Assembly (NCBI RefSeq): GCF_028728065.1 | Contig: NZ_CP117811.1 | Location: 1,426,001 to 1,490,000, forward strand | DNA: 64,000 nucleotides | Direction: 5' to 3' | Source: Lentisphaera profundi | Lineage (GTDB): Bacteria; Verrucomicrobiota; Lentisphaeria; Lentisphaerales; Lentisphaeraceae | Shown here: positions 2,954 to 50,200 of the stretch, piece by piece | Layout: each line of letters opens with the position of its first letter | How positions within the stretch are numbered: position 1 is the first letter of the stretch | Notes under the pieces: model-generated | What the model saw: the letters and a program-made list of their open reading frames with translations, nothing else | The model's database searches: none | What the model was told of the DNA's origin: nothing | Made by a program: the position numbers and the translations under genes

Positions 2954-4603
2954 TTAAATTAGATTGATTACATACACTGTGGCTAAGTTATTCAGTTTTT
3001 TGGGTGAGATAGAAATAGAATTGTTTATAAGTCGCCAATCTAAGGGTGTTCCCTCGATGTCGGTAATTGATTTAATTTTTAAATTGTTTGATACTGGGCT
3101 AGTTAGAATCAGTTTTTTATTCTGGGGTGGGGCACCCAGACTTATTGCGTAGACCGTTTTTTTGTCCTTTGACATGGTATAGCGGATATCTTTGTAACTG
3201 TATTTGAGGTTCAAAAAAAAGTCTTTGTTGTTCAGTCCTGGTGGAGGTGCTGTAGAAGGACCTTCAGCTGCCGTAATCCAGGGACGAGTTGAGTAAATAG
3301 CCTTACCACTTTCCTTTAGCCATTGGCCCATTTTCAACAGGACATTACGCTGGTCATCGGGGATAACTCCCTGTGAAGTTGGTGATATATTAAGGAGTAA
3401 TACACCATTTTTACTGACTGTATCAATAAGTGAATGAAGCACCATGTCAACCGGTTTTATTTTCATATCTTTCGTGTAAGACCAGCTGTCGGTACTTAGG
3501 GTATCATCGGTCATCCAGAGCTCCGGCAGGGCTTTAGGTTCGCGAGATTTTTCGTGGTCATTGATTGTATAATCCAGCGGCAGATCATTTTGTTTACGGA
3601 TGATGGCAACATTTTTATTGCGTTTCGCGGCTTCATTGAGATAGTATGCGGAAAAGCGTTGACGGTAGGATGCAGGGATCTGATCAAGCCAGCTATCAAA
3701 CCATACGATATCAGGATCGTAGTTATCTATGACTTCCTCCAATTTCCCTAACCACATATCTTCATGCCATTGATCATGCGGCATATTACCATAGAGTTTT
3801 TGGAGCTCTGGGTCATCTGAGCTTGTTGCATGCCCCTCCAAATAAGGGAAGTGGCTATTGAAGCTTATACGTCTGGATTTGTCAGTAAAAGCATACTTTT
3901 TACGTTCTGTTTCATAGCTTTCAGAATTATGGCGTTGAAAGTTTTTAGCGTGATGAAATGTAGCGATCGTTTTAAGATTACGTTTTTTAAGTGAGCTAAA
4001 TAACTCACCTAAAACATCTCTTTTGGGTCCTCGATCTTTGGCATTCCATGGAGTTAACTCTGAGTTCCACATTGAGAAACCGTCGTGGTGTTCCGCGACC
4101 GGGCCGGCAAACTTTGCACCTGCCAATTCGAATAATTCGGCCCATTCAGAAGGATCAAAATGTTTACCTGTGAATTGAGGAATGAATTTATGGTAAGGGT
4201 ATTTAGAAGGGTGACCGTAAGTTTTTTCATGGTGTTTAAATACATTGTCACCATAAAAGGGACCTATTTTTTCGGAGTCGAACCACATGAGACGCGGATA
4301 CCATTCGGTCATGTAGGCGGGGACTGAATAAGGTCCCCAGTGAAAATAAATCCCCAGTTTGGCATCTTCTAACCATTCAGGTGCAGGATCATGCTTGGCT
4401 AGAGAATCCCAGTTCGATGTATAGACCTTCTCACTTTGACAGCCTGTGAAGAAACTAGTCATTAAAATAAGCAGGATAAGTATATACTTTTTATGTATCA
4501 TGCTTGTGCAGTAGCTTGTGTTAGAAGCATTGGGGTAGTGGCTGTTTTTTCTAATAGGAAGCTCAGCTGTTAGCTCAGTTTCACTGTGCGGTATATTATT
4601 CAT
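2954..4603 (-). CDS. GH29 alpha-L-fucosidase, lipoprotein
   Basis: Retaining alpha-L-fucosidase that would release terminal L-fucose. Family marks are LGIYFHWGPYSVPAYMTEWY near the N-terminus, the AEHHDGFSMWNS segment, and YDPDIVWFDSW, whose Asp is the expected nucleophile; LLLNISPTSQG closes the catalytic domain. The hydrophobic stretch ending in SFFTGC is a lipobox, so the protein is probably anchored in the outer or inner membrane. Two starts are possible: 4603 has AAGGG 7 nt before it but would place 34 polar residues ahead of the signal, while the ATG at 4501 (MIHKKYILILL) gives a normal lipoprotein signal but has no clear Shine-Dalgarno. I favour 4501 for the mature signal. An ECF-like promoter box lies at 4770-4798. 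The gene precedes the sulfatase on the same strand. Confidence 0.9.
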   Translation of the reverse strand: MNNIPHSETELTAELPIRKNSHYPNASNTSYCTSMIHKKYILILLILMTSFFTGCQSEKVYTSNWDSLAKHDPAPEWLEDAKLGIYFHWGPYSVPAYMTEWYPRLMWFDSEKIGPFYGDNVFKHHEKTYGHPSKYPYHKFIPQFTGKHFDPSEWAELFELAGAKFAGPVAEHHDGFSMWNSELTPWNAKDRGPKRDVLGELFSSLKKRNLKTIATFHHAKNFQRHNSESYETERKKYAFTDKSRRISFNSHFPYLEGHATSSDDPELQKLYGNMPHDQWHEDMWLGKLEEVIDNYDPDIVWFDSWLDQIPASYRQRFSAYYLNEAAKRNKNVAIIRKQNDLPLDYTINDHEKSREPKALPELWMTDDTLSTDSWSYTKDMKIKPVDMVLHSLIDTVSKNGVLLLNISPTSQGVIPDDQRNVLLKMGQWLKESGKAIYSTRPWITAAEGPSTAPPPGLNNKDFFLNLKYSYKDIRYTMSKDKKTVYAISLGAPPQNKKLILTSPVSNNLKIKSITDIEGTPLDWRLINNSISISPKKLNNLATVYVINLI

Positions 4604-9718: not shown

Positions 9719-11284
9719 ATGAAATTTATAAAGAACTTATTATTTACAGCATTGGCAATACTAACATTTTCCAGCGTGCAGGCCTCTGAGAAATTTGAGC
9801 CTACTTGGGAATCACTGCAAAAATTTGAAACTCCAGAATGGTATAGCGATGCAAAATTAGGTATTTTTCTTCATTGGGGTCCGCAAACAATACCCCGTAT
9901 GGGAGGCTGGTATCCACGGAATATGTATAATGAAGAGCATAAAGCCTATAAATCACATTTGAAGAATTTTGGGCATCCATCTGAGGTGGGCTATAAAGAT
10001 ATTATAGCTATGTGGAAGGCAGAAAAATTCGCTGCAGATAATTTAGTGCAAGTATTTAAACGAGCAGGGGCTGGTTTTATTGTTCCTGTAGCAACGCATC
10101 ATGATAACTTTGATCACTGGAACTCAGTGCATCATGATTGGAATTCAGTAAAGAAGGGACCTCGTAAAGATATAGTTGGACTTTGGCGTGATGCCACGCT
10201 AAAACAAGGCTTACGCTTTGGCGTTTCAACTCATTTAGCGCGCAGTTATAGTTGGTTTCAACCGAGTCATGGGGCCGATACTAAAGGACCTTTCAAAGGG
10301 CTTGCTTATGATGGATCCAAGCCTGAAAATCAGGGCTTGTATCACGAGACGCATGGTGATACTTACCTATTCTATCCTAAAAATCCCAGTAAAGCTTTTG
10401 TGGCTTCTTGGAAAAACCGCCATCTCGATCTCATAGATAATTATCAGCCTGATTTACTCTATTGGGATGGAGCGGTGCCTTTTGAAGAAGTCGGTAGAGA
10501 CATTGTCGCCCACCTTTATAACGAGAATATTAAAAGAAATGGCAATAATGAGGCTTTGTTGTGTTATAAACCGATTCGCGGAACACATGGAGATTTTCGT
10601 GATGGTATAGGCGTAATGGATCTTGAACGTGGAACATTTTTGAAAGCCCAAAAAACTACCTGGCAAAATGATACATCGATTGGCCCTTGGTTTTGGGATG
10701 GTCGTGCTCGTAAAGATTATCGGCAAGTGAATGAGATTGTTGATATGTTTGTAGACCTAGTGAGTAAAAATGGAGTTTTATTAATGAATATTCCTTTAAA
10801 ACCAGATGGTAAAATGGATGAAACGACTAGGGCGATGCTAGCGAAACTAACGGCATGGACAACAATTAATGGCGAGGCAATTTTTAAGACGCGTCCCTGG
10901 ATTAAATATGGTGAGGGGCCCAGTATCCACCAAGCCAAGCGAGCCGCGCATGCCGTTGATACAAAAGTGGTGGAGGGTGTGGTTTTTGAGACCAAGGATA
11001 TTCACGTACGCGATACTAAACTTGATCCCTTAGGAAGCCAAGACATTCGTTTTACTGCAAGTAAAGATGCCTCCATTATTTATGCTTTTGTGATGGATTG
11101 GCCTAGCGATGAAGATTTATTGATAAGTTCATTAAGTCAGGAAAATACGGGAGCGATTGCTGCTGTTGAACTTTTGGGGCACGGTACTGTATCTTGGTCT
11201 CAAGATAGTGCGGGCTTGAAATTAAAACTTCCGGCAAGCGCTCCCTCAGATTACGCCTCAGCTTTTAAGATAAAATTAAAATAA
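9719..11284 (+). CDS. GH29 alpha-L-fucosidase, secreted
   Basis: 521-residue alpha-L-fucosidase with a Sec signal peptide ending in SSVQASE. Family marks are WYSDAKLGIFLHWGPQTIP (about 39-57), VATHHDNFDHWNS and YQPDLLYWDGAVPFE, whose Asp is the expected nucleophile. NGVLLMNIPLKPDG matches the conserved end of the catalytic barrel. It differs from the first fucosidase (HHDNF here against HHDGF there), so the two likely have different linkage or substrate preference. AAGGTGTG lies just before the ATG. It is followed by the PL8 lyase and SGNH esterase on the same strand, each with its own upstream gap. Probably acts in the periplasm. Confidence 0.92.
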   Translation: MKFIKNLLFTALAILTFSSVQASEKFEPTWESLQKFETPEWYSDAKLGIFLHWGPQTIPRMGGWYPRNMYNEEHKAYKSHLKNFGHPSEVGYKDIIAMWKAEKFAADNLVQVFKRAGAGFIVPVATHHDNFDHWNSVHHDWNSVKKGPRKDIVGLWRDATLKQGLRFGVSTHLARSYSWFQPSHGADTKGPFKGLAYDGSKPENQGLYHETHGDTYLFYPKNPSKAFVASWKNRHLDLIDNYQPDLLYWDGAVPFEEVGRDIVAHLYNENIKRNGNNEALLCYKPIRGTHGDFRDGIGVMDLERGTFLKAQKTTWQNDTSIGPWFWDGRARKDYRQVNEIVDMFVDLVSKNGVLLMNIPLKPDGKMDETTRAMLAKLTAWTTINGEAIFKTRPWIKYGEGPSIHQAKRAAHAVDTKVVEGVVFETKDIHVRDTKLDPLGSQDIRFTASKDASIIYAFVMDWPSDEDLLISSLSQENTGAIAAVELLGHGTVSWSQDSAGLKLKLPASAPSDYASAFKIKLK

Positions 11285-22574: not shown

Positions 22575-23203
22575 ATGAAATTTTTTTCATACTGTCAGTT
22601 GGATGGTCAGGTCATAAGCCATATGAATTTGCCGATTTTTTTGAGGGACACTTTCATAAACGGGGAATGGAGGTTGTTCATAGTCGAACTTTAGATTTTT
22701 TCGGCGATTTAAATTACCTTAAAAGGTTTGATCTAATTATGCCAAATGGGACTATGGGCGAGATCACGGAGGAACAGGAAAACAATCTTATTGAGGTAGT
22801 GAGATTAGGTGTAAACTTAGTGCGTGTTCATGTAGGCGCGGGAGATGCTTTTCGTTCCAGTCTAAATTATCAGTGGATGATTGGAGGTCAATTTCTTGGT
22901 CACCCTTACGTAGGTGAATACGAAGTAAGGCTTACTCAAAAAGATCATGCTACTTGTTCGGGAATTCCTACAAAGTTTATCGTCAATACTGAGCAGTATT
23001 ATATGTTAGTCGATCCGTCTATAGAGGCTGAGACTGCTTATATTTATGAAAATCAGGAGGTTGAAATGCCGGTTGCGTGGGTAAAAAGATGGGGGAAAGG
23101 GAGAGTCTTTTATTCAAGCTTGGGACATGATCCCATCGAGTATAAAAAATTCCCTGAAATGCGGTTACTATTAACTAATGCGATAAAGTTTTTAGTTGAA
23201 TAA
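22575..23203 (+). pseudogene. decaying ThuA-like gene (copy of 42954-43586)
   Basis: From 22607 on, the frame encodes HKPYEFADFFEGH and continues parallel to the intact ThuA protein at 42954 to the end. The natural ATG at 22575 (MKFF) is out of frame because the T-run 22581-22587 is one T short; an eighth T would restore MKFFFILSVGWSGHKPYEF. Conserved glycines are also changed: GIHGGAGD in the intact copy is RVHVGAGD here, and MPNWTMGE is MPNGTMGE; two or three residues are missing near PSIEAETAY. It ends 4 nt before the converging RbsD-like gene. Probably non-functional, though the T-run alone could be a base-call error. Confidence 0.7.
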
Positions 23204-23207
23204 AAGT

Positions 23208-23597
23208 TTAGGCGCTTTCGAGTATGATATTTGAGTAAGAAGCTGTGCCACCAGTACGAATTAAGCCAATAGCTCGCGGTACGCGTTTTTTAAACTCATC
23301 ATGATCTTCGAACTCCCTTGATATGTCTTTGAGGACTTCATTAAAAGAATTTTTAATGTCTTCTTCATTCCATGAATTAAATTGTTCGGCCATCCAGCAT
23401 TTGCCTACAGTAAAGTGGGGTAAGATGACTTTGAGAACATGCAGTACAGAGGGCTGATCGTCTGCTAAAGAGATATCAATAGTTTCGATCGCCGGCCAGA
23501 AAGGAAAGCCTTTGTCGGAGATGATGATTGTGTTGGTGTGGCGAACACGCATGAGTAGTTCATGAAGTGCAGGGTTGAGTAGGTCGTGATTAAACAT
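23208..23597 (-). CDS. RbsD/FucU family sugar mutarotase
   Basis: 129 residues, typical of the D-ribose pyranase / L-fucose mutarotase family that interconverts anomers of free sugars. Marks are HDLLNPALHELLMRVRHTN, ISDKGFPFWPAIETIDISL with the catalytic His early in the chain, and the C-terminal RTGGTASYSNIILESA. It lies 18 nt after the GH43 gene on the same strand, so it likely handles the monosaccharide that enzyme releases or fucose from the window's fucosidases. Ribose, fucose or another sugar cannot be told apart by eye. Confidence 0.85.
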   Translation of the reverse strand: MFNHDLLNPALHELLMRVRHTNTIIISDKGFPFWPAIETIDISLADDQPSVLHVLKVILPHFTVGKCWMAEQFNSWNEEDIKNSFNEVLKDISREFEDHDEFKKRVPRAIGLIRTGGTASYSNIILESA

Positions 23598-23615: not shown

Positions 23616-25211
23616 TTATAAAGCAATGTTAGTAGCCACTAGGTCTGGATTAACCATACTAACTATAGAGCGATCATCATGGGCACGAGTTGAAATGTCT
23701 TTGTAGCTAAAGCTGTGAAAGAGAGCTGAGTTTGCGGATTTCGCACCATTTGAACTTGCGTAGAGGGCTGTGTAGACGCCCGTAAAACCACCTGCTACTT
23801 CTGTAGCTATATGGCGGACTTCAGCTTGACCAAGTTCGTAAGTTTTGCCCTGAATTTCCGCGGAGAATATGTACCAAATATCATTGCTAATGATTTTTAG
23901 CTTTACTTCTCCACCTGCAGGGATTTGTACTGAATTAACTTCAAGACGTATAGATCCGAGAGCGCGTTTCAAAGTTATGAATCGTTTGCCATCTATTGCG
24001 TGTATCGCAATTGCGTGCCAATGATTTTCATTCATACCTACGCTTAAGCCGGCTTCCTCTAAGTTTTTAGGGTCAAAGCTCATATTGATTTCAGTTTGAC
24101 TATCAAAATGCTGTTGACGGCGCCCAATCCAACTGAGTTGATGGTTTGAATCAAGCGCAGGCTTTAAACATTTGAGGCGCAGGCCCTGACTTTCAAGTGA
24201 CCAGCTCCCTGGGATTGGGTTACGTCTAAAGTTCCAGCCGAGATCGAGTTCGTGATCAGCAAAGTTGTCGGTGTATTCAAACTTATTTTGTTTGGCGACT
24301 GGAGCGGGCAGGAGTTGTGGGACATCCATACAAAGCTGAAGGAAATCCCCTTGGATTTGTGGCCATTCACCATCCCAATTCACTGGAGCGAGATAAGTTT
24401 CGCGGCCAAGGTGGTGGATAAATGGGTATTGGGAGTGACGGACGCCGAGGCAGACCATCCACCATTGACCATTTTGGTCTTCAAAAAGCTCAGCATGCCC
24501 CGTTGACTGAATGGGAAGAGAGCTTCCTCTATGGCTTAAAATTGGATTGTGCGGACAGGGTTCATAAGGGCCAGTTATTTCTTTAGCACGAGCCATGGTG
24601 ACAGCGTGAGTGAACTCGGTGCCACCTTCTGCTATTATGAGGTAATACCAATTGTTTTTCTTGTAGGTATGTGGCGCTTCTGGGTATTTTCCACCTGTGC
24701 CACCCCACATGAAGGTCGGTTCATCTCCAAGTAACTCACCAGTCTTAGGGTTCATTTCCCTTAAGTATACGCCTTGTCGATTGTTCCAGTGTAGGTAATT
24801 AGATGCAAAGTAACATTTACCATCATCATCCCAGAAGAGAGATGGATCGATTCCACCTTGAGGAACTTTTATGGGGTCGGACCAATCTCCAGCAGGATCC
24901 TCTGCAGTGACGTAAAAATTGCCGATGCCAGTTGTATCCGTAGTCACCATGTAGAAAAGTCCTTCATGGTAACGAATAGTCGGGGCATAGATACCACCCG
25001 ATGCTTTACAGTTAATTAGATCGAGCTGACTTTGACGGGTGAGGCAATGGCCGACTTGTTCCCAATCAATAAGGTTTTTACTTTTAAAAATAGGTACACC
25101 AGGAAAGTATTCGAAAGTGCTTGTTACCATGTAAAAGGTATCGCCAACTCGGCAAACACTTGGGTCGGGGTAGAAACCTGGGAGGATAGGGTTTTTATAT
25201 TTTGTAATCAT
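23616..25211 (-). CDS. GH43 glycoside hydrolase (beta-xylosidase/arabinofuranosidase type)
   Basis: 531 residues without a signal peptide, so cytoplasmic. The five-bladed beta-propeller shows NPILPGFYPDPSVCRVGDTFYM (catalytic base Asp about 16), GGIDPSLFWDDDG (pKa-modulating Asp) and GKYPEAPHTYKKNNWYYL (catalytic acid Glu). A C-terminal beta-sandwich from about 325 (FADHELDLGWNFRRNP to the end) matches the DUF1349/GH43_C2-like domain of beta-xylosidases. It likely trims imported xylo- or arabino-oligosaccharides. Operon with the RbsD/FucU gene; divergent from the GH2 gene over an AT-rich 181-nt region. Confidence 0.9.
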   Translation of the reverse strand: MITKYKNPILPGFYPDPSVCRVGDTFYMVTSTFEYFPGVPIFKSKNLIDWEQVGHCLTRQSQLDLINCKASGGIYAPTIRYHEGLFYMVTTDTTGIGNFYVTAEDPAGDWSDPIKVPQGGIDPSLFWDDDGKCYFASNYLHWNNRQGVYLREMNPKTGELLGDEPTFMWGGTGGKYPEAPHTYKKNNWYYLIIAEGGTEFTHAVTMARAKEITGPYEPCPHNPILSHRGSSLPIQSTGHAELFEDQNGQWWMVCLGVRHSQYPFIHHLGRETYLAPVNWDGEWPQIQGDFLQLCMDVPQLLPAPVAKQNKFEYTDNFADHELDLGWNFRRNPIPGSWSLESQGLRLKCLKPALDSNHQLSWIGRRQQHFDSQTEINMSFDPKNLEEAGLSVGMNENHWHAIAIHAIDGKRFITLKRALGSIRLEVNSVQIPAGGEVKLKIISNDIWYIFSAEIQGKTYELGQAEVRHIATEVAGGFTGVYTALYASSNGAKSANSALFHSFSYKDISTRAHDDRSIVSMVNPDLVATNIAL

Positions 25212-25392: not shown

Positions 25393-27219
25393 ATGTTTAA
25401 AACTCGAAATTCGTTTATCGACCTTAATGGAACTTGGAAGTTTAATCCAGATCCTTACCAACGTTGCAGACAGCAATCCTGGTGGAAACAAGAAGGGGAT
25501 AATTCAGGTTTTTTCCCTTGCTTCAATATGGATGGCATGTGGGATACACAGGTACCGTCAACTTGGAAAAAGGAATTTGAGGAGCTTAAATGGTACGACG
25601 GTCACGCTAATTATGCCCGCGATTTTGCAGTTGATGAAATTCCCGAGGGACATGAAGCCTTTTTATGTATAGATAGTGCAACATACCGCTCAGAAGTTTA
25701 TCTCAATGGTGAACACGTTGGGAATCACGAATGGGCTTATTCCCCTTTTCAATTTAAGGTGACAGATTTACTTCAAGAAGGCAATAATCGTATATTTGTG
25801 CTGATCGATAATTTCATGCAGGAGGATCGCGTACCTGGCATTCGCACCGATTGGAATAATGACGGTGGTCTCACGGGTTCGGTTAGAATTATTTTTGTGC
25901 CAAAGAGCTATATAGAGAATTTTAGAACTCAGACAGTTTTAGAAGATGACAAGGTTAAAATTCAGGTTGAGATATTTGCGCAGTCAACTGAAGGTGAAAC
26001 GACTTTGGATTACGAGTTTAAAATTGATGAATTGGCTTTGAGTCATAAGGCTTCTGCAAAAGTCGGCGAAAAAGAAAAATTTGAATTTGTTTTAGAGCCT
26101 TCACAGATTGAACTTTGGGACCAAGAAAATCCGAAGCTCTATAATACGAGTATTGTGACTGCCACAGAAGAACTAAACGATGAGATTGGCTATCGCGAAA
26201 TCAAAACTGAGGGTGAGAAAATTCTTCTCAATGGAGAAGAAATTCGCCTCTATGGTGTCGCAGTCCACTCTGAATTCCCTGATACAGGTCGCGTTCCCAC
26301 AGCTGAGGGTATAGAGCTGATGCTTGAAAAAGCACGTGAATTGGGTTGTAACTTTTTGCGATGTGCGCATTATCCTTATGCCGAAGAGTTTGGCAAGGCG
26401 ATGGATCGCGCCGGCATGCTTTGGTGGGAAGAAGTTCCTGTATATTGGTTACCTAATGTACATCAAGAGCCTCAATTGAGTAAAGCACTTGGGATGATGA
26501 GGGAGGCTGTATTACGCGACTGGAATAGAGCATCTTTGATTTTTTGGTCAGTTTCCAATGAATGTGCTGGAGATGGAACTGCGGCGGGTTCAAATAGCGA
26601 CTTAACGACAGGCAATTATCCCTACTGGACGAAAGCATGTGCACAAATTCGCGAACTCGATCCAAGTCGCCTAATCAGTTCAGCTGACTCAGGTCACAGG
26701 AAAACTGAAGCCAATAAGGACTGGACTCCAGATGCAGGAGATCACTTTGACACGGAAATGGCCAAAGAAAGTTGGCATCCAGGCCATCCTGACGAGTTTT
26801 ATGAATTGATGGATGTTTTGGGGGCGAATCTCTATGTTTCCAATCCAGGAGATAACCCCATTGCGACACAGAAATTTGTAGATATGCTCAAGCGCTTTAA
26901 TAAGCCACTTATGATTACGGAGTTTGGTTCCATGTCAACTACAGAGGAAACTGATAGACCGGAAACCGACCTTGGTCATCCAGTTCGTCATGAGACAATC
27001 TTGCGAGAGGCCTATGCTACCTACCATGAGCATGAGGAAATTGTTGGTTATGTGCCTTGGGCTTTGATGGATTGTCGTGTGCCTATGCATTGGCGTTGGT
27101 ATAATCGTGGGACGGGAACCTTTGCCTATGGCATGTTGGATAATAATTATAAAAAGAAACATGTCTTTGACGTCGTTCAAGCAGAAATCACCAAGCTACG
27201 AAAAAGGTTTAATGATTAG
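25393..27219 (+). CDS. GH2 glycoside hydrolase (beta-glucuronidase/galactosidase-like)
   Basis: 608 residues, no signal peptide, so likely cytoplasmic. The N-terminal jelly roll starts FIDLNGTWKFNPD and includes YRSEVYLNGEHVGNHEWAYSPF; an Ig-like domain follows; the TIM barrel has LRCAHYPYAEEF, SVSNECAGDG (acid/base Glu about 390) and MITEFGSMS (nucleophile Glu about 508). Length fits the beta-glucuronidase/beta-galactosidase group. It would hydrolyse a beta-linked uronic acid or hexose from lyase- or fucosidase-trimmed oligosaccharides. GGAATTATTACT precedes the ATG. Its TAG overlaps the GTG start of the next gene by one base, so both are one operon. Confidence 0.9.
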   Translation: MFKTRNSFIDLNGTWKFNPDPYQRCRQQSWWKQEGDNSGFFPCFNMDGMWDTQVPSTWKKEFEELKWYDGHANYARDFAVDEIPEGHEAFLCIDSATYRSEVYLNGEHVGNHEWAYSPFQFKVTDLLQEGNNRIFVLIDNFMQEDRVPGIRTDWNNDGGLTGSVRIIFVPKSYIENFRTQTVLEDDKVKIQVEIFAQSTEGETTLDYEFKIDELALSHKASAKVGEKEKFEFVLEPSQIELWDQENPKLYNTSIVTATEELNDEIGYREIKTEGEKILLNGEEIRLYGVAVHSEFPDTGRVPTAEGIELMLEKARELGCNFLRCAHYPYAEEFGKAMDRAGMLWWEEVPVYWLPNVHQEPQLSKALGMMREAVLRDWNRASLIFWSVSNECAGDGTAAGSNSDLTTGNYPYWTKACAQIRELDPSRLISSADSGHRKTEANKDWTPDAGDHFDTEMAKESWHPGHPDEFYELMDVLGANLYVSNPGDNPIATQKFVDMLKRFNKPLMITEFGSMSTTEETDRPETDLGHPVRHETILREAYATYHEHEEIVGYVPWALMDCRVPMHWRWYNRGTGTFAYGMLDNNYKKKHVFDVVQAEITKLRKRFND

Positions 27220-28187
27220 TGAAGAAAATTAAGTTAGCTCTTTGGGGCGATAATGGTCACCAGATTCACAATGATCTAGAATTATACCCAGAGTTTGAGC
27301 TTGTGGTAATTGGTTCTATTGCGGAGTCCGCAGAAAGAGATCTTTTGAAAAAGTACTCTGAAGCCAAGCTTGAAAATGATTATGAAAAAATGATCCACGA
27401 CTATGGTGTGGAGATGATTAGTTTATGTTCAGAATATCGTTCAGAACAGGCTGATTTAGCTGTGCGCGCTTTAGATAAAGGCATACATGTCTATGCAGAA
27501 AAACCCTGTGCTCTAAGTGAAAAAGATTTAGATAGAATTATTGCGAGCGCTGCAAAGTCAAAGGCAATTTTTCATGAAATGGCGGGTACGCTTTGGGAAG
27601 AACCTTATTGGTCCATGCGCAAGATTGTGCAAAGTGGCCAGATTGGAGAAGTGGTTCAGGTTCTTGCTCAGAAATCCTATCCCTATGCAGATTGGCGACC
27701 TCGGAACGAAAAAGTGGATGGAGGTCTAGTAGCTCAAGTTGGTGTCCATGCCGTACGTTTTGTGGAGCATGTGGCTGAGCAAAAGATCAAAGATATTCAT
27801 TGCCAAACAAGTACACTTGGCGAAGTCCGCAAAAACTCAGAGCTAAAAATGGCAGCTAATTTCAGCGGTAGGCTTGAGAATGGAGGACTTTATTCCTGTA
27901 TAGCTAATTACCTTCATAACCCTGGAATGGGTAGCTGGGGAAATGAAATGCTAAGGATCTTTGGAACAAAGGGAATGATTGAAAGTTGTGATGCTGGGAG
28001 ACGGACACGCATGATTATCGGCGATAAGGATTTTGGTGACTTGGATTTGTCGGATGAAAAGCCAGACTTTTTGGCTGAGTTTATCAAAGAGATTTGCGAA
28101 GGTCGCAAAATGCTTCTCTCACTAGAAGAAGAACTCAGCCCGACGCGCTGGATGATCAGGGCTAAGTTTTTCAATAAAATCACTTAA
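27219..28187 (+). CDS. Gfo/Idh/MocA family oxidoreductase
   Basis: 322 residues with an N-terminal Rossmann fold (KKIKLALWGDNGH; a looser dinucleotide motif than usual) and the family's catalytic-region string GIHVYAEKPCALSEKDLDRI (Lys-Pro of the EKP motif). VDGGLVAQVGVHAVRFVEHV carries the expected C-terminal His. Starts at GTG 27219, overlapping the GH2 stop by one base, so translation is coupled. Such enzymes oxidise or epimerise sugars with NAD(P). In this operon it probably acts on the sugar released by the GH2 enzyme. Substrate unknown. Confidence 0.85.
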   Translation: MKKIKLALWGDNGHQIHNDLELYPEFELVVIGSIAESAERDLLKKYSEAKLENDYEKMIHDYGVEMISLCSEYRSEQADLAVRALDKGIHVYAEKPCALSEKDLDRIIASAAKSKAIFHEMAGTLWEEPYWSMRKIVQSGQIGEVVQVLAQKSYPYADWRPRNEKVDGGLVAQVGVHAVRFVEHVAEQKIKDIHCQTSTLGEVRKNSELKMAANFSGRLENGGLYSCIANYLHNPGMGSWGNEMLRIFGTKGMIESCDAGRRTRMIIGDKDFGDLDLSDEKPDFLAEFIKEICEGRKMLLSLEEELSPTRWMIRAKFFNKIT

Positions 28188-28342: not shown

Positions 28343-30856
28343 ATGAGTAAATTTTATAAACAACTAAGCTTCTTGCTTTGTCTAATTTGTTTTGTTCCGC
28401 TAAATGCGGCAGAGCAACATTTAATTATTGAGCAATCTAATTTTAGTTTTAATTCACTCAGTAAAAACTCCCTAATATATCAGCTTGGCGAAAAGCCAGT
28501 TCTTATAGATCCTGAAAATAACACAATCTCTTATAAAAAAAATAATACCTGGCAAGACCAAAGTTTCACGGAATTGCCCAAATTTGCAGCCTATGCCGAG
28601 GGTGTGGATAAGATCTATATTGTAGGTGGTGTTATCGCAGGGCAGCAGAGTAAAAAAGTTTTTGACTTGAGTCTAGTGGGAGATAAGCTGCAACTAAATT
28701 CTCTGCCAGACATGCCCCATGGGGTTTTGAATGCAGGTGCGGGTGTTTTCAAAGGAGCGCTTTATGTCTGTGGTGGACTAGAATCTGTTTCCGCTAATGA
28801 AGCCTCGAAGAAAGCGATTCGTTATAATTTCTCTGCAGAAATTCCCAGCTGGGAAAAACTAGAGGATCTACCTGAGGCAGTGTATTCCCCCAGTGTCATC
28901 GAAGGTTTTGAAGAACTATTGCTCATTGGAGGTAAAGTTTTTAATCAAGCAGGTGTGGGCCTAAGTACTAATAATGTTATGGGATTTCGTCTTGCTCCGA
29001 TTGATGGGCAGACCAAGAAAGGCTGGCGGAAATTAGCGCCAATTCCTCAAACTTTATCAAATAACTGTGTAGCGAAATTGGGGCAATCTCATATTTTATT
29101 ACTTGGTGGAGAGAGCATTAAATCAAATGACAAGAGTGAGCTATCAAAGCAGGTTTACTTTTATCACAATATGAGTAATACATGGATGACTGAGTCTGTT
29201 GACATGGAGCCTAGAAGTCATGCTTTTTTAATTAAGCAGAAGGATAACTACCTATTGTGTGGAGGTCGCAATCGTAAAGGGGAATTACAAAATAAGGCAG
29301 TGCACATAAAAGTTCAGAGGGTTGTCAAAAGTCTAGAGTTTTTAGATTACGCAGTAATTGTTGTTTACTTTATCATTATGGCCGGAATAGGCGTGTTTTT
29401 TGCCAAGAAGCAAGATACAGCAGAGGAGTATGCCCTTGGTAACCGTGGAGTAAAATGGTGGGCGGCAGGAATATCGATGTTTGCCACTGCGGCAAGTTCA
29501 ATAAGTTTTATGGCGATTCCAGCCTTGGTCGCGGCCACTAGTTTGGTTCACGTAAGTGGTGTGCTGTTAATTATTCCCGCTTTCTTTGTTTCAGCTTATC
29601 TGACCTATCCCTTACTCAGACGTTTGAAAATCACCTCTACCTTTGAATACATGGAACTGCGCTTTGGAAAGAGTTTACGCATAGTTGGTAGTATTCAGAA
29701 CATCACATATCAGTTGGCTGGAAGAATGAGCGTAGTTATGCTTTTGCCTGCTTTGGCAATTAGTGCTGTAACAGGCCTAGATATAATGTTGAGTATTTTG
29801 TTAATGGGGGGCTTAACGACTTTGTATACTTGTTTTGGTGGCTTCGAGGCGGTTATTTGGTCCGATGTTATGCAGGGGGGCATGATGCTCCTTGGTTTAT
29901 TGATTATTGCCGTCTTTGGGATATGGGCTTTGCCAGAAGGCTTCACAACTTTTTATGAAGTCAATCAGGCAAACCACAAGCTCAATGCATTTTTATTTAG
30001 CAGTGATATGTCCTTGCCCTTATTCATCTTTTTTGCTTTAAATACGATCATCGTGCAAATGAATTTTATCTCAGATCAATCCCTAGCTCAGCGCATACTT
30101 TGTACCCCAGAAAAAGATGTGCCAAAGTTAGCTGGAGCAATGACGGCGTGCAGTATTGTTGTAGCCGTTCTTGCCGGATTTGCCGGTTTAAGTTTATTTG
30201 CCTATTTTACAACGTTCCCTGATAAAATGGATGTGATGATGAAAAATGATAGCATGGTCCCCTTATTCATTGTTCAACAACTCCCAGTGGGCTTAGTAGG
30301 GCTCATTATTGCGGCTTTATTTGCAGCATCGATGTCGACTCTATCTAGTAGTATGAATAGCTGTGCGGTACTCATATCTGAAGATTTTTATAAACGCTTT
30401 AGTAAAAAACCCGACGAGCAGAAAGCCTTGAAAATCATGAAAATTTCGACTTTTGCATTTGGAGCAATAGGGACCAGTTCAGCTTTAATTTTGTCTAAAA
30501 TCGATACACCGGCACTAATGCAAGTTTGGGCCGAAATTTGTGCGGTTTTATCGGGAGGTTTTATCGGTGTAGCCATCCTAGGTGTATTCACTCGGCGCAC
30601 CAATTGTGGCGGTGCAGTTGTGGGTGTTGTTGCAAGTATAGTGGTATCACTTTTACTAAAGAATTATAGTACAATTCACTGGTCATCTTTTGCTGTTTTC
30701 TCTACTTTAAGTTGTTTACTTTTTGGTTATTTTAGTAGCTTTATTCTTCCAGGTAAGAAGAGGGACCTTAGGGGTTTAACGCTATGGGATATGTATCCTT
30801 CTGAGGATGAAGAGGTGAAAGGCTCAAAGCTTGAGTCTAAGGCAGTAGAAGCTTAA
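28343..30856 (+). CDS. Kelch-domain / sodium:solute symporter fusion
   Basis: 837 residues combining two functions. After a signal peptide (LLCLICFVPLNAAEQ), residues about 30-325 form a Kelch-type beta-propeller with repeated GG motifs (KIYIVGGVIAG, ALYVCGGLES, ELLLIGGKVF, HILLLGGES, NYLLCGGRN), like sialic-acid mutarotases (NanM-like). From about 333 a full sodium:solute symporter follows, beginning LDYAVIVVYFIIMAGIGVFF and AEEYALGNRGVKWWAAGISMFATAASSISFMAIP, with roughly 13 membrane spans. This would place a periplasmic mutarotase or sugar-binding propeller directly on a Na+-driven importer. It is followed by the L-fucose dehydrogenase-like gene 51 nt later, so L-fucose or a sialic-like sugar is a plausible cargo. 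Domains firm, cargo inferred. Confidence 0.88.
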   Translation: MSKFYKQLSFLLCLICFVPLNAAEQHLIIEQSNFSFNSLSKNSLIYQLGEKPVLIDPENNTISYKKNNTWQDQSFTELPKFAAYAEGVDKIYIVGGVIAGQQSKKVFDLSLVGDKLQLNSLPDMPHGVLNAGAGVFKGALYVCGGLESVSANEASKKAIRYNFSAEIPSWEKLEDLPEAVYSPSVIEGFEELLLIGGKVFNQAGVGLSTNNVMGFRLAPIDGQTKKGWRKLAPIPQTLSNNCVAKLGQSHILLLGGESIKSNDKSELSKQVYFYHNMSNTWMTESVDMEPRSHAFLIKQKDNYLLCGGRNRKGELQNKAVHIKVQRVVKSLEFLDYAVIVVYFIIMAGIGVFFAKKQDTAEEYALGNRGVKWWAAGISMFATAASSISFMAIPALVAATSLVHVSGVLLIIPAFFVSAYLTYPLLRRLKITSTFEYMELRFGKSLRIVGSIQNITYQLAGRMSVVMLLPALAISAVTGLDIMLSILLMGGLTTLYTCFGGFEAVIWSDVMQGGMMLLGLLIIAVFGIWALPEGFTTFYEVNQANHKLNAFLFSSDMSLPLFIFFALNTIIVQMNFISDQSLAQRILCTPEKDVPKLAGAMTACSIVVAVLAGFAGLSLFAYFTTFPDKMDVMMKNDSMVPLFIVQQLPVGLVGLIIAALFAASMSTLSSSMNSCAVLISEDFYKRFSKKPDEQKALKIMKISTFAFGAIGTSSALILSKIDTPALMQVWAEICAVLSGGFIGVAILGVFTRRTNCGGAVVGVVASIVVSLLLKNYSTIHWSSFAVFSTLSCLLFGYFSSFILPGKKRDLRGLTLWDMYPSEDEEVKGSKLESKAVEA

Positions 30857-30907: not shown

Positions 30908-31693
30908 TTGGATCTTAATTTAAAAGGTAAAGTGGTGATCATCACTGGTGGTGCCAAAGGTATAGGAGCTGCGATTTCGGAATCTTTTGCAGCAGAAGGA
31001 GCTAAACTTGTCATAGCGAGCCGCCCTTCGACAATGGCGTCTGAGTTTGTGGATAAAATAAAAGAAACAAGTGAAGTTCTCTACATCCAAGGAGATCTCA
31101 CGACGCCAGGTTTTTGTGAAAAAATTATTGATCAAACCGTCCAGAAATTTGGTCAAATTGATGTACTTGTAAATAATGCAGGTGTAAATGATGCTTGTAA
31201 TATCGATGATTCATTGGATAAGTTTCAGCAGTCATTAAATACCAATTTAATTCAGGTTTTTGAATTGGTTCATTACGCTTTTCCGCATCTTGAAAAAACT
31301 AATGGTAATATCGTTAATATTGGTTCGAAAGTAGCTGAGACGGGGCAGGGCAATGCAACAGGCTACGCGGCGGCAAAAGGTGCGGTCAATGCTCTTACTA
31401 GGGAGTGGGCACTGGAGTTTAGAATGAAGGGAATTAGAGTTAACTCAATTATTCCTGCAGAATGCATGACACCACTTTACCGCAGCTGCCTGGATAGACT
31501 TCCCAAGCCAGAAGAAGAGGAACGACGCATTACTAGTATGATTCCTCTCGGTGAAAGAATGACTAGGGCAGAGGAATTAGCAGACCTTACTGTATTTATT
31601 GCATCCAGTCGCTCGTCTCATACCACAGGGCAGATTATCTATGCAGATGGTGGATACACTCACTTAGATCGCAAGTGTACTGTAAAAGAATGA
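30908..31693 (+). CDS. SDR oxidoreductase, probable L-fucose dehydrogenase
   Basis: 261-residue short-chain dehydrogenase starting at TTG (GGAG 7 nt upstream), MDLNLKGKVVIITGGAKGIG. It has the cofactor motif TGGAKGIG, NNAGVND, and the catalytic Ser-Tyr-Lys in IGSKVAETGQGNATGYAAAK. The segments IPAECMTPLYR, RASHTTG-like SSHTTGQIIYADGG and terminal GYTHLDR closely follow those I recall for proteobacterial L-fucose dehydrogenases, which oxidise L-fucose to L-fuconolactone in the non-phosphorylating pathway. It lies directly after the symporter fusion. The SDR call is certain; the fucose call rests on memory of motif similarity and fits the window's fucosidases. Lactonase and fuconate dehydratase are not in the window. 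Confidence 0.8.
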   Translation: MDLNLKGKVVIITGGAKGIGAAISESFAAEGAKLVIASRPSTMASEFVDKIKETSEVLYIQGDLTTPGFCEKIIDQTVQKFGQIDVLVNNAGVNDACNIDDSLDKFQQSLNTNLIQVFELVHYAFPHLEKTNGNIVNIGSKVAETGQGNATGYAAAKGAVNALTREWALEFRMKGIRVNSIIPAECMTPLYRSCLDRLPKPEEEERRITSMIPLGERMTRAEELADLTVFIASSRSSHTTGQIIYADGGYTHLDRKCTVKE

Positions 31694-36977: not shown

Positions 36978-39584
36978 TCACAGCTCTGCAAGTTTTTTGT
37001 TATTTCGACTAATAGATATTTTATTACGCCCATTATTTTGCATTGTGAAAGTAATGACATCCACCTGTTTGCCAATAGTCACTGTGACCTGATTACGGGA
37101 TTCATTCCATTCATACTTTGGCAATTTGGCACCCTTATAATGAGGGTAAAGTAAGACTTTAAAGTTGGGCTCAACCGCACGACTGGGAATCACTAAACGT
37201 TTCTGAAGTTGAAAGCCGCGACCCTGTGGCCAACTACGAGCGTCTTTTAACTCAAATGTCTCTAGGCGAATCTGTGGATTGGTGTAAATATCTTCTGGAA
37301 TGGTGCGATCGAGAACACTGACTAGGCACATGGGGACTTTAGCGCCGATTTTGCGATTGAGGCCCGGTTTCATTTCCATATTGGGGTGACTCTCGTCAAA
37401 AAGCATGATCTCGTGAGTCCCTATGGAGGCAACTTCAGTGTTTGGGGTGAGCATCATCAGCCATTCATAAAGACGCTCTTGATCATCTTTCTTGATATCA
37501 TCAGTAATGAGGACGTAGGGGTGTTCGCCACGAACGAGCATTGCACTGCGAAAAGCCTTTTCCACGGGATTATGCTCAATACGCAAAGGGCGAGAATATT
37601 CATCCCAAATTCGGGGGTCACCCTTTTCAAAACCTTTATAAAATTTTTCTAACTTAGGGTGACGGTCTACATGATCCTGCCATTTAAAGTCGAGATTTTT
37701 TGCTAGGAAGGCATCGGCTTTTTCGGTGAAGTTTGCGTAGCGCGCAAATTTTCTGCGAGGATCATTGAGATCGACATAACCACAGAGCTCACCAGGCCAG
37801 CGCCAGGCGTGGGAATAGGCGGTATCGACTGCGGCAATAGTTACATCTTCATTGTCTTGCATGCCAAGCCATGTGGAAGGCGGTGTGAAGTAACCCTGTC
37901 CCTTACCGTCGATAATGACCAAGCTATGATGGCGACCTTCAACGGAGCGAAAGCGCTCATCTGCCCAAACACGTCCTGCACCTGTGAGGGTGAAAGCCCC
38001 CTTGTCGGCGTGTTGGTGATTGGGGGCATGACCATCGTCACGTGCTTCGAATTGCAACTGCAATTGATCGATCCCCCATTTATCACGTGTTATGAGGGAG
38101 TTTCGATCGGGATCAAAAAAGGTATTTTTTAAGCCTAGGTTTTTTCCATCATTGTATTGTTTTTTAGAACTATCCGCCGCAATAATTAGGTCCATATGTG
38201 GGTAAGAATTATAAAAAGTCTTTTTGTTTGGGGGTGGGAAATTGCCATTTTTATCCAGAGTGACTTGGTTGGTGCGTTGCAGAACATAATCAACAACTGG
38301 GTCATTGGGGTAGAAGCGTTTGAAAGCTTGCATGGTCATGGTGGAAGGGCCACCCTGTCCGCCGTCACCGTGACTTATGAAACGTTGACCGGAGTCATTA
38401 CCCTTACCAAAAGCATTGGGCTGCGATGATTGAGCGTACCAATTGACGGAGTTTTTCCAGCGATTGAGGTTCCAGATATTGTCGCCACGACGTGCCATGG
38501 CAATAAACCCTGGGATTGCCCAGCGCAAACCAAATTGTGAATAGCCTATAGCCTCATCTGATGAGCCCATATCTGACCAGCCATATTTCACAAAGTCAGT
38601 GAGGATTTCTCTGGCGTGATCTATCACGCGTTGATCATTGCCGGGTTCACCTTCAGTAGCTAATGCTGTGAGATATAGACCTCCAGAACCGATGGCAATC
38701 CAGTTCCAGTTGCGGAAATGATGGGGCATGTGGGAGCCCATGGTTGTCTTGCCAAAATGGTATTTATTGAGAGCTTTGCGGCAATTAGCGCGTTGTTCTT
38801 CGTTCATCCAATGATGCGCATAATCATACATAAAAGCAAACCAGGGTTCACCATCGATTGCAGCTCGTCTATTGCTTCGCCAGACATCGCCGTTGAGCTG
38901 AATAGACTGTTCATTTAAACGAAAACCGTGGAAACGGTCAGGCGTATTATATTTATCTGTGCTAACCTTTCCTGCTTTGAAACTTTCATCCATTGCTACG
39001 AGGCGCTTGTAGTAGATTGTTGAGAGGGTAGAAATCGCTGCGGCAAGTTCCTTTCCCATTTTTTCATCTTCGCGAATTAATGAATCTAGAGCCTCAGTCA
39101 TGAGCACATAAGCAAAGCCGTAACGATGACTGTATTTTTGCTTACGGGGAAACTTGCTTTCTTTTTTCATGATTTTCATTGCTAAATCTTCATCACCAGC
39201 AGCTAATGCTTTCAGAAGCTCATAGGATTCAGAGCCTTTGTTGCGAATGGATTCTTTTTGATTGACTGTGATCTGATGATAGGCGTAAGCACCAGCCAGG
39301 GTATTCTTTATACCTGCGCGAATGCGAGGTAAGTCGTCGGGAGAAATGAGTATACGTGGGTGAATTCCAGAAGCAGGGACTTCTCCAAAGGCATAGGGAT
39401 CGAAATTTTTATCATCAACTTTACTTAAGTCAACTTTTGGAGAATTCGGCCACATGTATTCGCCCTTGAGGATTTGATCAGCAGTCTGTTCTCCAGGCAG
39501 TTGAGCCATTGGCTCTGCGGCATTTAAAATGAGTGAGCTGAAGAGTGAAAATATAAAACTGACTTTAAGTAAAGTTTTTTTCAT
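36978..39584 (-). CDS. heparinase II/III-like polysaccharide lyase
   Basis: 868 residues from the ATG at 39584 (AAGGA 8 nt upstream, MKKTLLKVSFIFSLFSSLIL signal); an upstream ATG at 39620 only adds residues before the signal. Family features are ASGIHPRILISPDDLPRIRAG, the toroid motif GSHMPHHFRNWNWIAIGSGG, and the beta-sandwich motif HAPNHQHADKGAFTLTGAGR with the expected catalytic/metal His. It is a clear paralogue of the lyase at 61234 (shared GKTTMGSHMPHHFRNWNW, RSVEGRHHS/RGIESRHHS, RIWDEYSRPLR). It would cleave uronate-containing polysaccharide outside the cytoplasm. It leads an operon with the 1420-aa lyase, behind a dyad operator at 39648. Confidence 0.88.
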   Translation of the reverse strand: MKKTLLKVSFIFSLFSSLILNAAEPMAQLPGEQTADQILKGEYMWPNSPKVDLSKVDDKNFDPYAFGEVPASGIHPRILISPDDLPRIRAGIKNTLAGAYAYHQITVNQKESIRNKGSESYELLKALAAGDEDLAMKIMKKESKFPRKQKYSHRYGFAYVLMTEALDSLIREDEKMGKELAAAISTLSTIYYKRLVAMDESFKAGKVSTDKYNTPDRFHGFRLNEQSIQLNGDVWRSNRRAAIDGEPWFAFMYDYAHHWMNEEQRANCRKALNKYHFGKTTMGSHMPHHFRNWNWIAIGSGGLYLTALATEGEPGNDQRVIDHAREILTDFVKYGWSDMGSSDEAIGYSQFGLRWAIPGFIAMARRGDNIWNLNRWKNSVNWYAQSSQPNAFGKGNDSGQRFISHGDGGQGGPSTMTMQAFKRFYPNDPVVDYVLQRTNQVTLDKNGNFPPPNKKTFYNSYPHMDLIIAADSSKKQYNDGKNLGLKNTFFDPDRNSLITRDKWGIDQLQLQFEARDDGHAPNHQHADKGAFTLTGAGRVWADERFRSVEGRHHSLVIIDGKGQGYFTPPSTWLGMQDNEDVTIAAVDTAYSHAWRWPGELCGYVDLNDPRRKFARYANFTEKADAFLAKNLDFKWQDHVDRHPKLEKFYKGFEKGDPRIWDEYSRPLRIEHNPVEKAFRSAMLVRGEHPYVLITDDIKKDDQERLYEWLMMLTPNTEVASIGTHEIMLFDESHPNMEMKPGLNRKIGAKVPMCLVSVLDRTIPEDIYTNPQIRLETFELKDARSWPQGRGFQLQKRLVIPSRAVEPNFKVLLYPHYKGAKLPKYEWNESRNQVTVTIGKQVDVITFTMQNNGRNKISISRNNKKLAEL

Positions 39585-39647
39585 ATGAATTGTCCTTAAG
39601 ATAAATATGCTAAAAATCAAAGCACTATAGATTGCCTTATATAGTAT

Positions 39648-47226: not shown

Positions 47227-50200
47227 TTATTTTTTATCAATATTGAAAACCTTTTTAATCTCTTCAGCACTAAGCGCGCTATCAAAAAGGCGGACTTCAT
47301 CCACTGCGGTCGGCTTATTATTACAGTGCATAAATTTACCGCCTTGGAAAAAACCGTTGCCCTTACGACTGGAGTAATTCAGTACCTGCTTTTGAGCAAT
47401 TTTTTTACCATTAAAATAGATAGTTACATTTTCACCATAAGTAGCGGCTATATGAAACCATTTATCTGCTGGAAGCTTGTTTTTATCAAGGCTGACATCA
47501 ACATTGCCAATATTTCTATTCCAATTGGCAATGAAACGATTAGCGCGGCAACGAAGAGTCAGATTGCCATAGGCTTCTCCCCATAGAACAATATCCTGAG
47601 GCTTATCTTTATATTTGATCCAAGCTGAAATAGTGAATTCATCTTCACGCTGACGTAGACCGCTAAAGCTTATGAAGCCGGCCTCGCCATAAATACCAAG
47701 AGCTTTGCCTCTGATTCCATCATTGATAATTTGTCCACCGGATATCACTGTAGAAGCACCCTTGCTATCAAGAACTGGGCTTGATCCCAGATCTAATTTA
47801 TCACAGGGCATATAAGCGATTAAACCTGCTGGTAAGTCTTTGTTTCTTCCAGTGGTAATTTTTGGGAGTTTGTAATGGGAATCATAGGCGAGGGCGGCGG
47901 GAATTAGAGTTTGGAAGTCGCTTTCACTCTCATGTTTCATTCGTATGAGAGATGAGCCCATGGCAATTTGGAAACGGAAAGCATGAAGCCCTTTGCTGAG
48001 AGCGATCTTGCCATTGACTTTATCTGCGTTAACTCTGCGACGGACAACTACTTTGTTGGCAATGATCAGTTGAGAAGCATTTTCGCTACCCTTAGCCAAA
48101 TCAAATTCGTAAACGCCGTCTTTGCCAATGCGAATGTAGCCTTCGTACTCTAGCAGTTTTCGAGGAGAATTACTGCTTATCATTAGGTCTGCAATTGTTA
48201 CTGAGTAGGGTTTTGCGGAACTCACATCGAAATACTCTAGAGCTAAGCCGGAGGCAGCTATGAGTTTAGCTTCAGATCTACCTTGAGCTTGTTTAGCTTC
48301 TTCAGTTAGGATGATGTCGAGACGATCATATCTTTTTTGAATGAGTCCGGGAAGAACCTGGAGCTTTTCTGCGGCAATATTTTTTTGACTAAACTTTGAA
48401 GGGCTCAAAGCCTTAAGTTTGTCGGCATTGCGACTGAGGGCTGAATCAGCAAGAGCTATATATTCAATAGATATTGGTGCTTTAAGAGCGAGATTTATTT
48501 TATAGTCTTCTTCCATGTCACCTTTCCAGAAAACTGGATCACATACCGTGAGGTCAAACTTGTGCGTACCTTTGGAGAGTGCGATGTCGCCATAGCGTTT
48601 TTTGTAGGAAAGACCATATTGCTTGTCAACAAGAATGATGTTTTGGTCAGATACTTTAAAGTCAATGGGACCGGCAGATTCTAGTTCAAAGGAATAGGTG
48701 CCACTTTCAGGTACTTGGATGTATCCACTGAAATTGTAGAAAGCTTTAGTCATCCATTTGCTGTCTACCGTATTGTTCATTTTTGGGATGTAAAAACCTT
48801 TGACCGCATGGGTCATGAGTGGTGTGTATTGTTGAATGTTTGGAAGTGAATTTTTATCTCCCTGGAAAAAGCCTTTCTCATCAAACTTTGTGGTTTTTAT
48901 CTCATAGCCTTTGACTAAGAGTCCCTGTGATTGAGGTTTTGATGTCAAAGCTTTTTTAGGCGCTTGTTTTTCGAAATCTATACTTACTGTTTCACTCCAA
49001 TTCTCTTTCCCGTAGCGCCAGTCGGCCTGGTAGGTTTTGGCTTTTAGAGTACAGCTTTTATTGATAATCAAAGTGCCATCGTAAATTGCGGACTGCGCAT
49101 TTGGTTCACTACCGTCAAGGGTGTAATAGACTTGAGCTCCTGGTTTAATGTTTTTAAATTTAACTGGATAAGTATCGACCAAAATTTGCGGAGCGCGCCA
49201 ATTTGGACGGTTTTGATCCACGGTGAATTTACTACTGGAGTCAAAGATCGGTTTTGGTGGACGTGCGTTGGAGTCAATAATAGATTTGCCATTGCGTTTC
49301 ATTGAGTAAACTGTTCTTTCGCGATCAGTTTGGCTAAAGTCATATGTATCAATATTTTCGCCAATTTGGACTGTTAGGCGGGTCCTGTCATCAGACCACT
49401 CAGTTGTAGGCAGGTTCTCACCATATTTATAGGGATAAACCATAACGCGGTATTCCGGGCTTTTACCAAAGGCAGGGACCGAAACCATGTTCCAGGAATA
49501 AGAGCGCTGCACATTGGGTACTGGGAATACATAATTAGTATTTCTCCAAAGAATACGCACAAGAAGCATGGGATCCCCTTTCTTAGGTTTAGGCTTCATT
49601 TCAATGTAGCGTAAGCCCCATGCGTTGCCGTCCTGTCTATTTATTTTTTTGTCAGCCATGCAGAAAATAAGATCTGTTCCAATTACACCATTGGTACTCT
49701 TGCTTGCCTGTCGACCTTTTGCTTTGGGATTTGAGCTATAAATAGCGGCATCACCAGTGATCATCATGCGCCAATCAAATTGATGATTTTGGTCATCTGC
49801 TTTTCGTAAATCATCAAAAATAAGTAAGTACGGTCTTTTACCACGTGCAAAGTGAGTTGTACGGAAAACGTGATCCATGGGATCATTCCATTTATAGTAG
49901 TACTCGGGGCCACGAGTTTCACCATGCCAAGGACCGTAATCTAGGTGGGCAAAGCCATCGTAGTGTTCGCGGATTTTTGGCAGGTAGGCAAGCTCGGAAA
50001 AGCGATCTAGGCTATAGGCTTCCTTGGCAAATGGCTGCATTTGAGATGGCATGGATTCAAGGCCAGGATGATCGAGGTAGCGCAGGCCATTAAGACTTTT
50101 GCGCCATTGATAAGCGGAAGTCATTTCAGATACGGAATTAGAAGCAATTTCGGTATTTTTTGCAGTCATCCAATCTCCAGAAATGGGTGCGTAAACACCT

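Follow-up and report, generated by a model that had tools for sequence, protein, structure and literature searches.

Lentisphaera profundi encodes, in the 64,000-nucleotide stretch of DNA analysed here (the window), a protein that family profiles assign as a Kelch propeller and a complete sodium:solute symporter (SSS) in one chain. We consider it somewhat more probable than not that this fusion is a Na+-coupled importer of L-fucose or of a small fucose-containing saccharide, carrying a non-catalytic propeller in the periplasm; orientation, lack of catalysis, and substrate are what we infer. The 837 amino acids are encoded by a single open reading frame (ORF; 28343-30856, + strand) with no internal stops, which is divided as follows.

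28343..28414, + strand: putative signal peptide (residues 1-24), predicted from a hydrophobic stretch at residues 10-29 and MSKFYKQLSFLLCLICFVPLNAAE
28415..29317, + strand: Kelch propeller (about residues 25-325) of NanM type, in circularly permuted form and lacking the E209/R215 loop; matches to Kelch_6, NANM, and TIGR03548, motif absent
29333..30853, + strand: SSS sodium:solute symporter (residues 331-837); matches to PF00474, TIGR00813, and SiaT (5nv9), Na2 and Na3 residues kept

The symporter half matches PF00474 over residues 363 to 763 (9.4e-45, 153.6 bits; curated cutoff, 22.8) and TIGR00813 (1.4e-64, 218.7 bits; curated cutoff, 184). Hydropathy indicates many transmembrane (TM) segments from residue 327 on, the criterion for SSS proteins being 13 to 15 TM helices with the N-terminus outside. 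For the propeller, Kelch_6 (2.1e-7) and Kelch_1 (6.5e-6) exceed their cutoffs. It contains five hh.GG motifs, ending at residues 96, 145, 197, 256, and 308 and spaced by 49 to 59 residues, but their number compared with shuffled sequence gives P = 0.049, which is a weak test taken alone, so the propeller call rests on the profile matches. The NanM propeller has six blades (PMC10017367), and the window propeller would likewise come to six if a degenerate first repeat is counted along with its five GG motifs. Structure prediction from two sequences only, the window protein and a 96% identical homologue (L013), reached a pLDDT of 31, and promoter and terminator scans gave no signal beyond chance level.

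The same 837-amino-acid build is present in two further Lentisphaera genomes, and thus in three species in all, with 96% overall identity in L. marina and, for the SSS part, 96% identity in the second genome. Similar fusions of 667 to 938 amino acids are found in many families of the Verrucomicrobiota (samples of 289 and 388 genomes). As the build recurs within Lentisphaera and across the phylum, the fusion does not stem from faulty assembly. A sequence-only reading had described a signal peptide, a Kelch propeller, and a full SSS transporter in one frame, and the ORF, the profile matches, the hydrophobic stretch, and the recurrence in Lentisphaera all bear this out. The genome of L. profundi itself has a second propeller-SSS fusion (787 amino acids, L044:7745-10108), whose propeller is very degenerate and has no catalytic motif; with this copy and the many families, the architecture is not limited to the window. 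No Kelch-SSS fusion was described in the open-access literature searched. Elsewhere, the fusion partner of a NanM-type propeller with the E/R motif is an MFS rather than an SSS transporter (L068:8707-11316 and L069:8270-10858), in L068 directly following a stand-alone NanM-like gene; these are apparently an independent mutarotase-transporter fusion event.

Kinship of the propeller with NanM was also part of the earlier reading, and it is retained at the level of matches below the family cutoffs: NANM PF24996 (5e-10, 39.1 bits; cutoff, 45), the permuted mutarotase family TIGR03548 (1.3e-11, 44.2 bits; cutoff, 243), and TIGR03547 (32.5 bits; cutoff, 256). NanM/YjhT (PDB 2UVK) and the cyclically permuted TIGR03548 proteins share with the window protein a Kelch propeller with a signal peptide. 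The window propeller differs from them in its scores below the family cutoffs, its fusion to a transporter, and the lack of one loop. E209 and R215 of NanM are catalytic, as Severi et al. reportedly found in 2008. In the aligned segments, on which presence of the motif was scored, the loop with these residues reads NGEAKPGLRT in 2UVK versus GGRNRKGELQ in the window protein. The motif-bearing relative L061 does align with 2UVK, including the E209/R215 loop, and in permuted order; this permuted register of the NanM/TIGR03548 family is the same in the motif-bearing fusions generally.

An unrooted tree of the SSS domain alone, built from 36 fused proteins across the Verrucomicrobiota, places the window protein in a 12-row clade (support, 100/100) in which the E209/R215 motif is absent from all rows. 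The motif is limited to one 13-row clade (99/98), so that a single change, either gain or loss, accounts for it on the unrooted tree. Fusions with the motif retain GGExxPGxR and, in most cases, threonine where SiaT has T63; the window protein has neither. A gene of the N-acetylneuraminate-lyase (NAL) type lies within 5 kb in 5 of the 13 motif rows versus 0 of the 23 others (Fisher P = 0.003, for rows that are not independent and with relatedness uncorrected). The motif-bearing fusions beside NAL-type genes, such as L052 and L061, have the same two domains, R461, and Na+ sites as the window protein, but the window protein sits in a locus of fucose and glycoside hydrolase (GH) genes. The neighbouring genes that bear on function are the following.

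2954..4603, - strand: GH29 alpha-L-fucosidase (PF01120, 1.7e-90)
9719..11284, + strand: GH29 alpha-L-fucosidase with a signal-peptide-like N-terminus (PF01120, 5e-82)
23208..23597, - strand: RbsD/FucU family mutarotase (PF05025, 2.5e-24)
23616..25211, - strand: GH43 glycosidase, no evident signal peptide (PF04616, 2.3e-91)
25393..27219, + strand: GH2 glycosidase, no evident signal peptide (Pfam GH2 domains)
27219..28187, + strand: Gfo/Idh/MocA oxidoreductase (PF01408/PF22725), overlapping the GH2 stop by one base
30908..31693, + strand: L-fucose dehydrogenase (FucDH; SDR), separated from the upstream fusion by 51 bp (NF052481, 349.6 bits; cutoff, 300)

An L-fucose dehydrogenase scoring above its cutoff and a fucose mutarotase of the FucU type are thus present beside two GH29 fucosidases, and PL8 and sulfatases are encoded here as well. 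The locus is most likely one for utilization or degradation of a fucose polysaccharide. The GH2 enzyme, which has a distant likeness to beta-glucuronidases, is probably cytoplasmic. Several other ORFs of the window deserve mention. Those at 47227-51936 and 53455-58167 (1569 and 1570 amino acids) have a near-identical N-terminus and apparently represent a duplication. Large secreted-type proteins without a Pfam match at the thresholds used are encoded at 36978-39620 and 61234-63801, with homologues near window-clade fusions in G211. A ThuA-family ORF (22667-23203) lacks the first 41 profile positions and is possibly truncated or misstarted; the L. marina ORF is equally long.

The linkage of the fusion to the GH2 gene extends beyond Lentisphaera. 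Close homologues of this GH2 occur in only 6 of 388 genomes. Five of these six also have a fusion of the window clade, and the two genes share a contig in three genera, at distances of about 1 to 14 kb. Counted by genus, they co-occur in Lentisphaera, G355, and G211, that is, in 3 of the 4 genera with the GH2, against a background of at least 9 genera with the clade among the 198 sampled (P = 2.6e-4). A Gfo/Idh/MocA homologue accompanies both genes in L070. FucDH lies beside the fusion in all three Lentisphaera; in the compared loci outside Lentisphaera, this adjacency is not conserved. GH29 genes are found directly or closely downstream of the fusion in L049 and L046. GH95, GH2, and GH29 genes are adjacent in G211 (L084), where the GH29 next to the GH2 homologue is 43% identical to that at 9719..11284, and another GH29 follows the fusion in that genome. 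As GH29 matches are numerous in some genomes (45 in G228 and 34 in G215), proximity of a GH29 gene is weak evidence there. Elsewhere in the L. profundi genome, a second FucDH gene lies near fuconolactonase-like (269 bits; cutoff, 400), FAH-type (360 bits; cutoff, 500), SDR, LldD-type, and GntR-type genes (L064:6984-17872), likely an oxidative pathway for L-fucose or a related deoxysugar.

Judged by its sequence, including the Na+ sites, the transporter is a predicted Na+-coupled SSS protein of the SiaT-like subgroup. SiaT of Proteus mirabilis (PDB 5NV9; SSS family, TC 2.A.21) is the nearest PDB structure to the SSS half (2e-68 over residues 331-806), and residues were mapped via the phmmer alignment. 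The Na2 and Na3 residues are kept (S342, S343, D182, S345, and S346 of SiaT correspond to S665, T666, D508, S668, and S669). For the substrate site we used the published N-acetylneuraminate (Neu5Ac) contacts T58, S60, T63, F78, Q82, R135, N247, and Q250 (PMC5931594). Only S60 (S385) and R135 (R461, in TM3) are identical, T63 corresponds to S388, and the others are replaced (T58 by A, F78 by H, Q82 by V, N247 by I, and Q250 by N). The 20 fused proteins that were aligned first all have R461 and S385. The genome has 8 further SSS paralogues, unfused or differently built, and none of them shows an arginine at the R461 position in the alignment. The window protein further differs from SiaT by the extra N-terminal propeller and by a genome without a detected NanA/NanE-type sialic acid pathway.

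The arrangement we propose is a propeller of NanM-type ancestry attached covalently to the N-terminus of a Na+-coupled sugar importer. Since there is a predicted signal peptide and the N-terminus of SSS proteins lies outside (PMC7918813), the propeller would be periplasmic and close to where the substrate enters. There it may serve in sugar capture, gating, or partner docking, most likely without catalysis, because the mutarotase catalytic loop is missing in the window branch. The importer would bring in L-fucose or a small fucose-containing saccharide for the fucose-polysaccharide locus, and cytoplasmic GH2 and GH43 enzymes, FucU, and L-fucose dehydrogenase would then supply an oxidative L-fucose route. 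Besides free fucose, a small saccharide could be what is imported, as GH2 and GH43 have no evident signal peptide and the GH29 encoded at 9719 has one.

Fucose is plausible as the substrate, but an acidic sugar is its main rival. The R461/S385/S388 trio corresponds to the part of SiaT (R135/S60/T63) that clamps a carboxylate, and such contacts are better suited to an acidic sugar than to fucose, which is neutral. It is therefore conceivable, at perhaps one chance in four in our estimation, that the fusion imports a uronate or similar sugar from the same polysaccharide while another importer handles fucose. The PL8 and the beta-glucuronidase-like GH2 nearby and the lack of R461 in the SSS paralogues speak for this possibility. 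However, R461 does not vary even between fusions whose neighbourhoods differ strongly and hence may not be an indicator of the substrate, and the scan of window proteins yielded no gene of a uronate pathway. A sialic acid importer with a mutarotase, as may hold in the motif-bearing clade, is a far more improbable description of the window protein. SiaT is the closest solved structure and NAL-type genes neighbour the motif-bearing clade, but the L. profundi genome has one DHDPS homologue only (4.6e-93) and no match to NanE, so a canonical sialic acid route is not seen; with the F78, Q82, N247, and Q250 contacts replaced and the catalytic motif absent, we rejected sialic acid as the substrate. 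Of the earlier proposal of fucose or a sialic-like sugar, the fucose part thus agrees with the context of FucDH, FucU, and GH29, and the sialic acid part does not stand.

The same reading had the sugar anomerised or captured and then passed to the pore by the one chain. With E209 and R215 absent from the window protein and its whole clade, we could not uphold the anomerisation, and the label mutarotase lacks support for this protein; for Kelch homologues that lack the catalytic region, anomerisation of Neu5Ac is unlikely (PMC8141875). The missing loop is compatible with some different catalytic site, and the propeller could still act as a mutarotase, with fucose or some similar sugar as its substrate ahead of transport. 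The kinship with NanM, the motif kept in another clade, and a GQSH-type motif whose G247 and H250 are conserved in most fusions favour such an activity. We consider it unlikely, as the loop is absent clade-wide and the cluster already encodes a FucU-type mutarotase.

For the importer with a non-catalytic propeller, the wider implication is a tentative one. It is possible, though on balance doubtful, that these proteins form a secondary transporter family whose mutarotase-like propeller, non-catalytic and covalently attached, serves for capture or gating in the periplasm, with sialic acid handled in one clade and a fucose-type sugar in the window clade on the same scaffold. TRAP and ABC systems use separate binding proteins, and the window-type propeller would be a built-in counterpart. 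If the propeller is indeed a non-enzymatic capture or gating domain, an enzyme-type fold would have become a lasting component of a transporter driven by sodium. Propellers with and without the catalytic motif could then be compared directly between the two clades, on the same scaffold, and a substrate class would be suggested for a group of transporters that occurs commonly in the Verrucomicrobiota and is without description in the literature searched.
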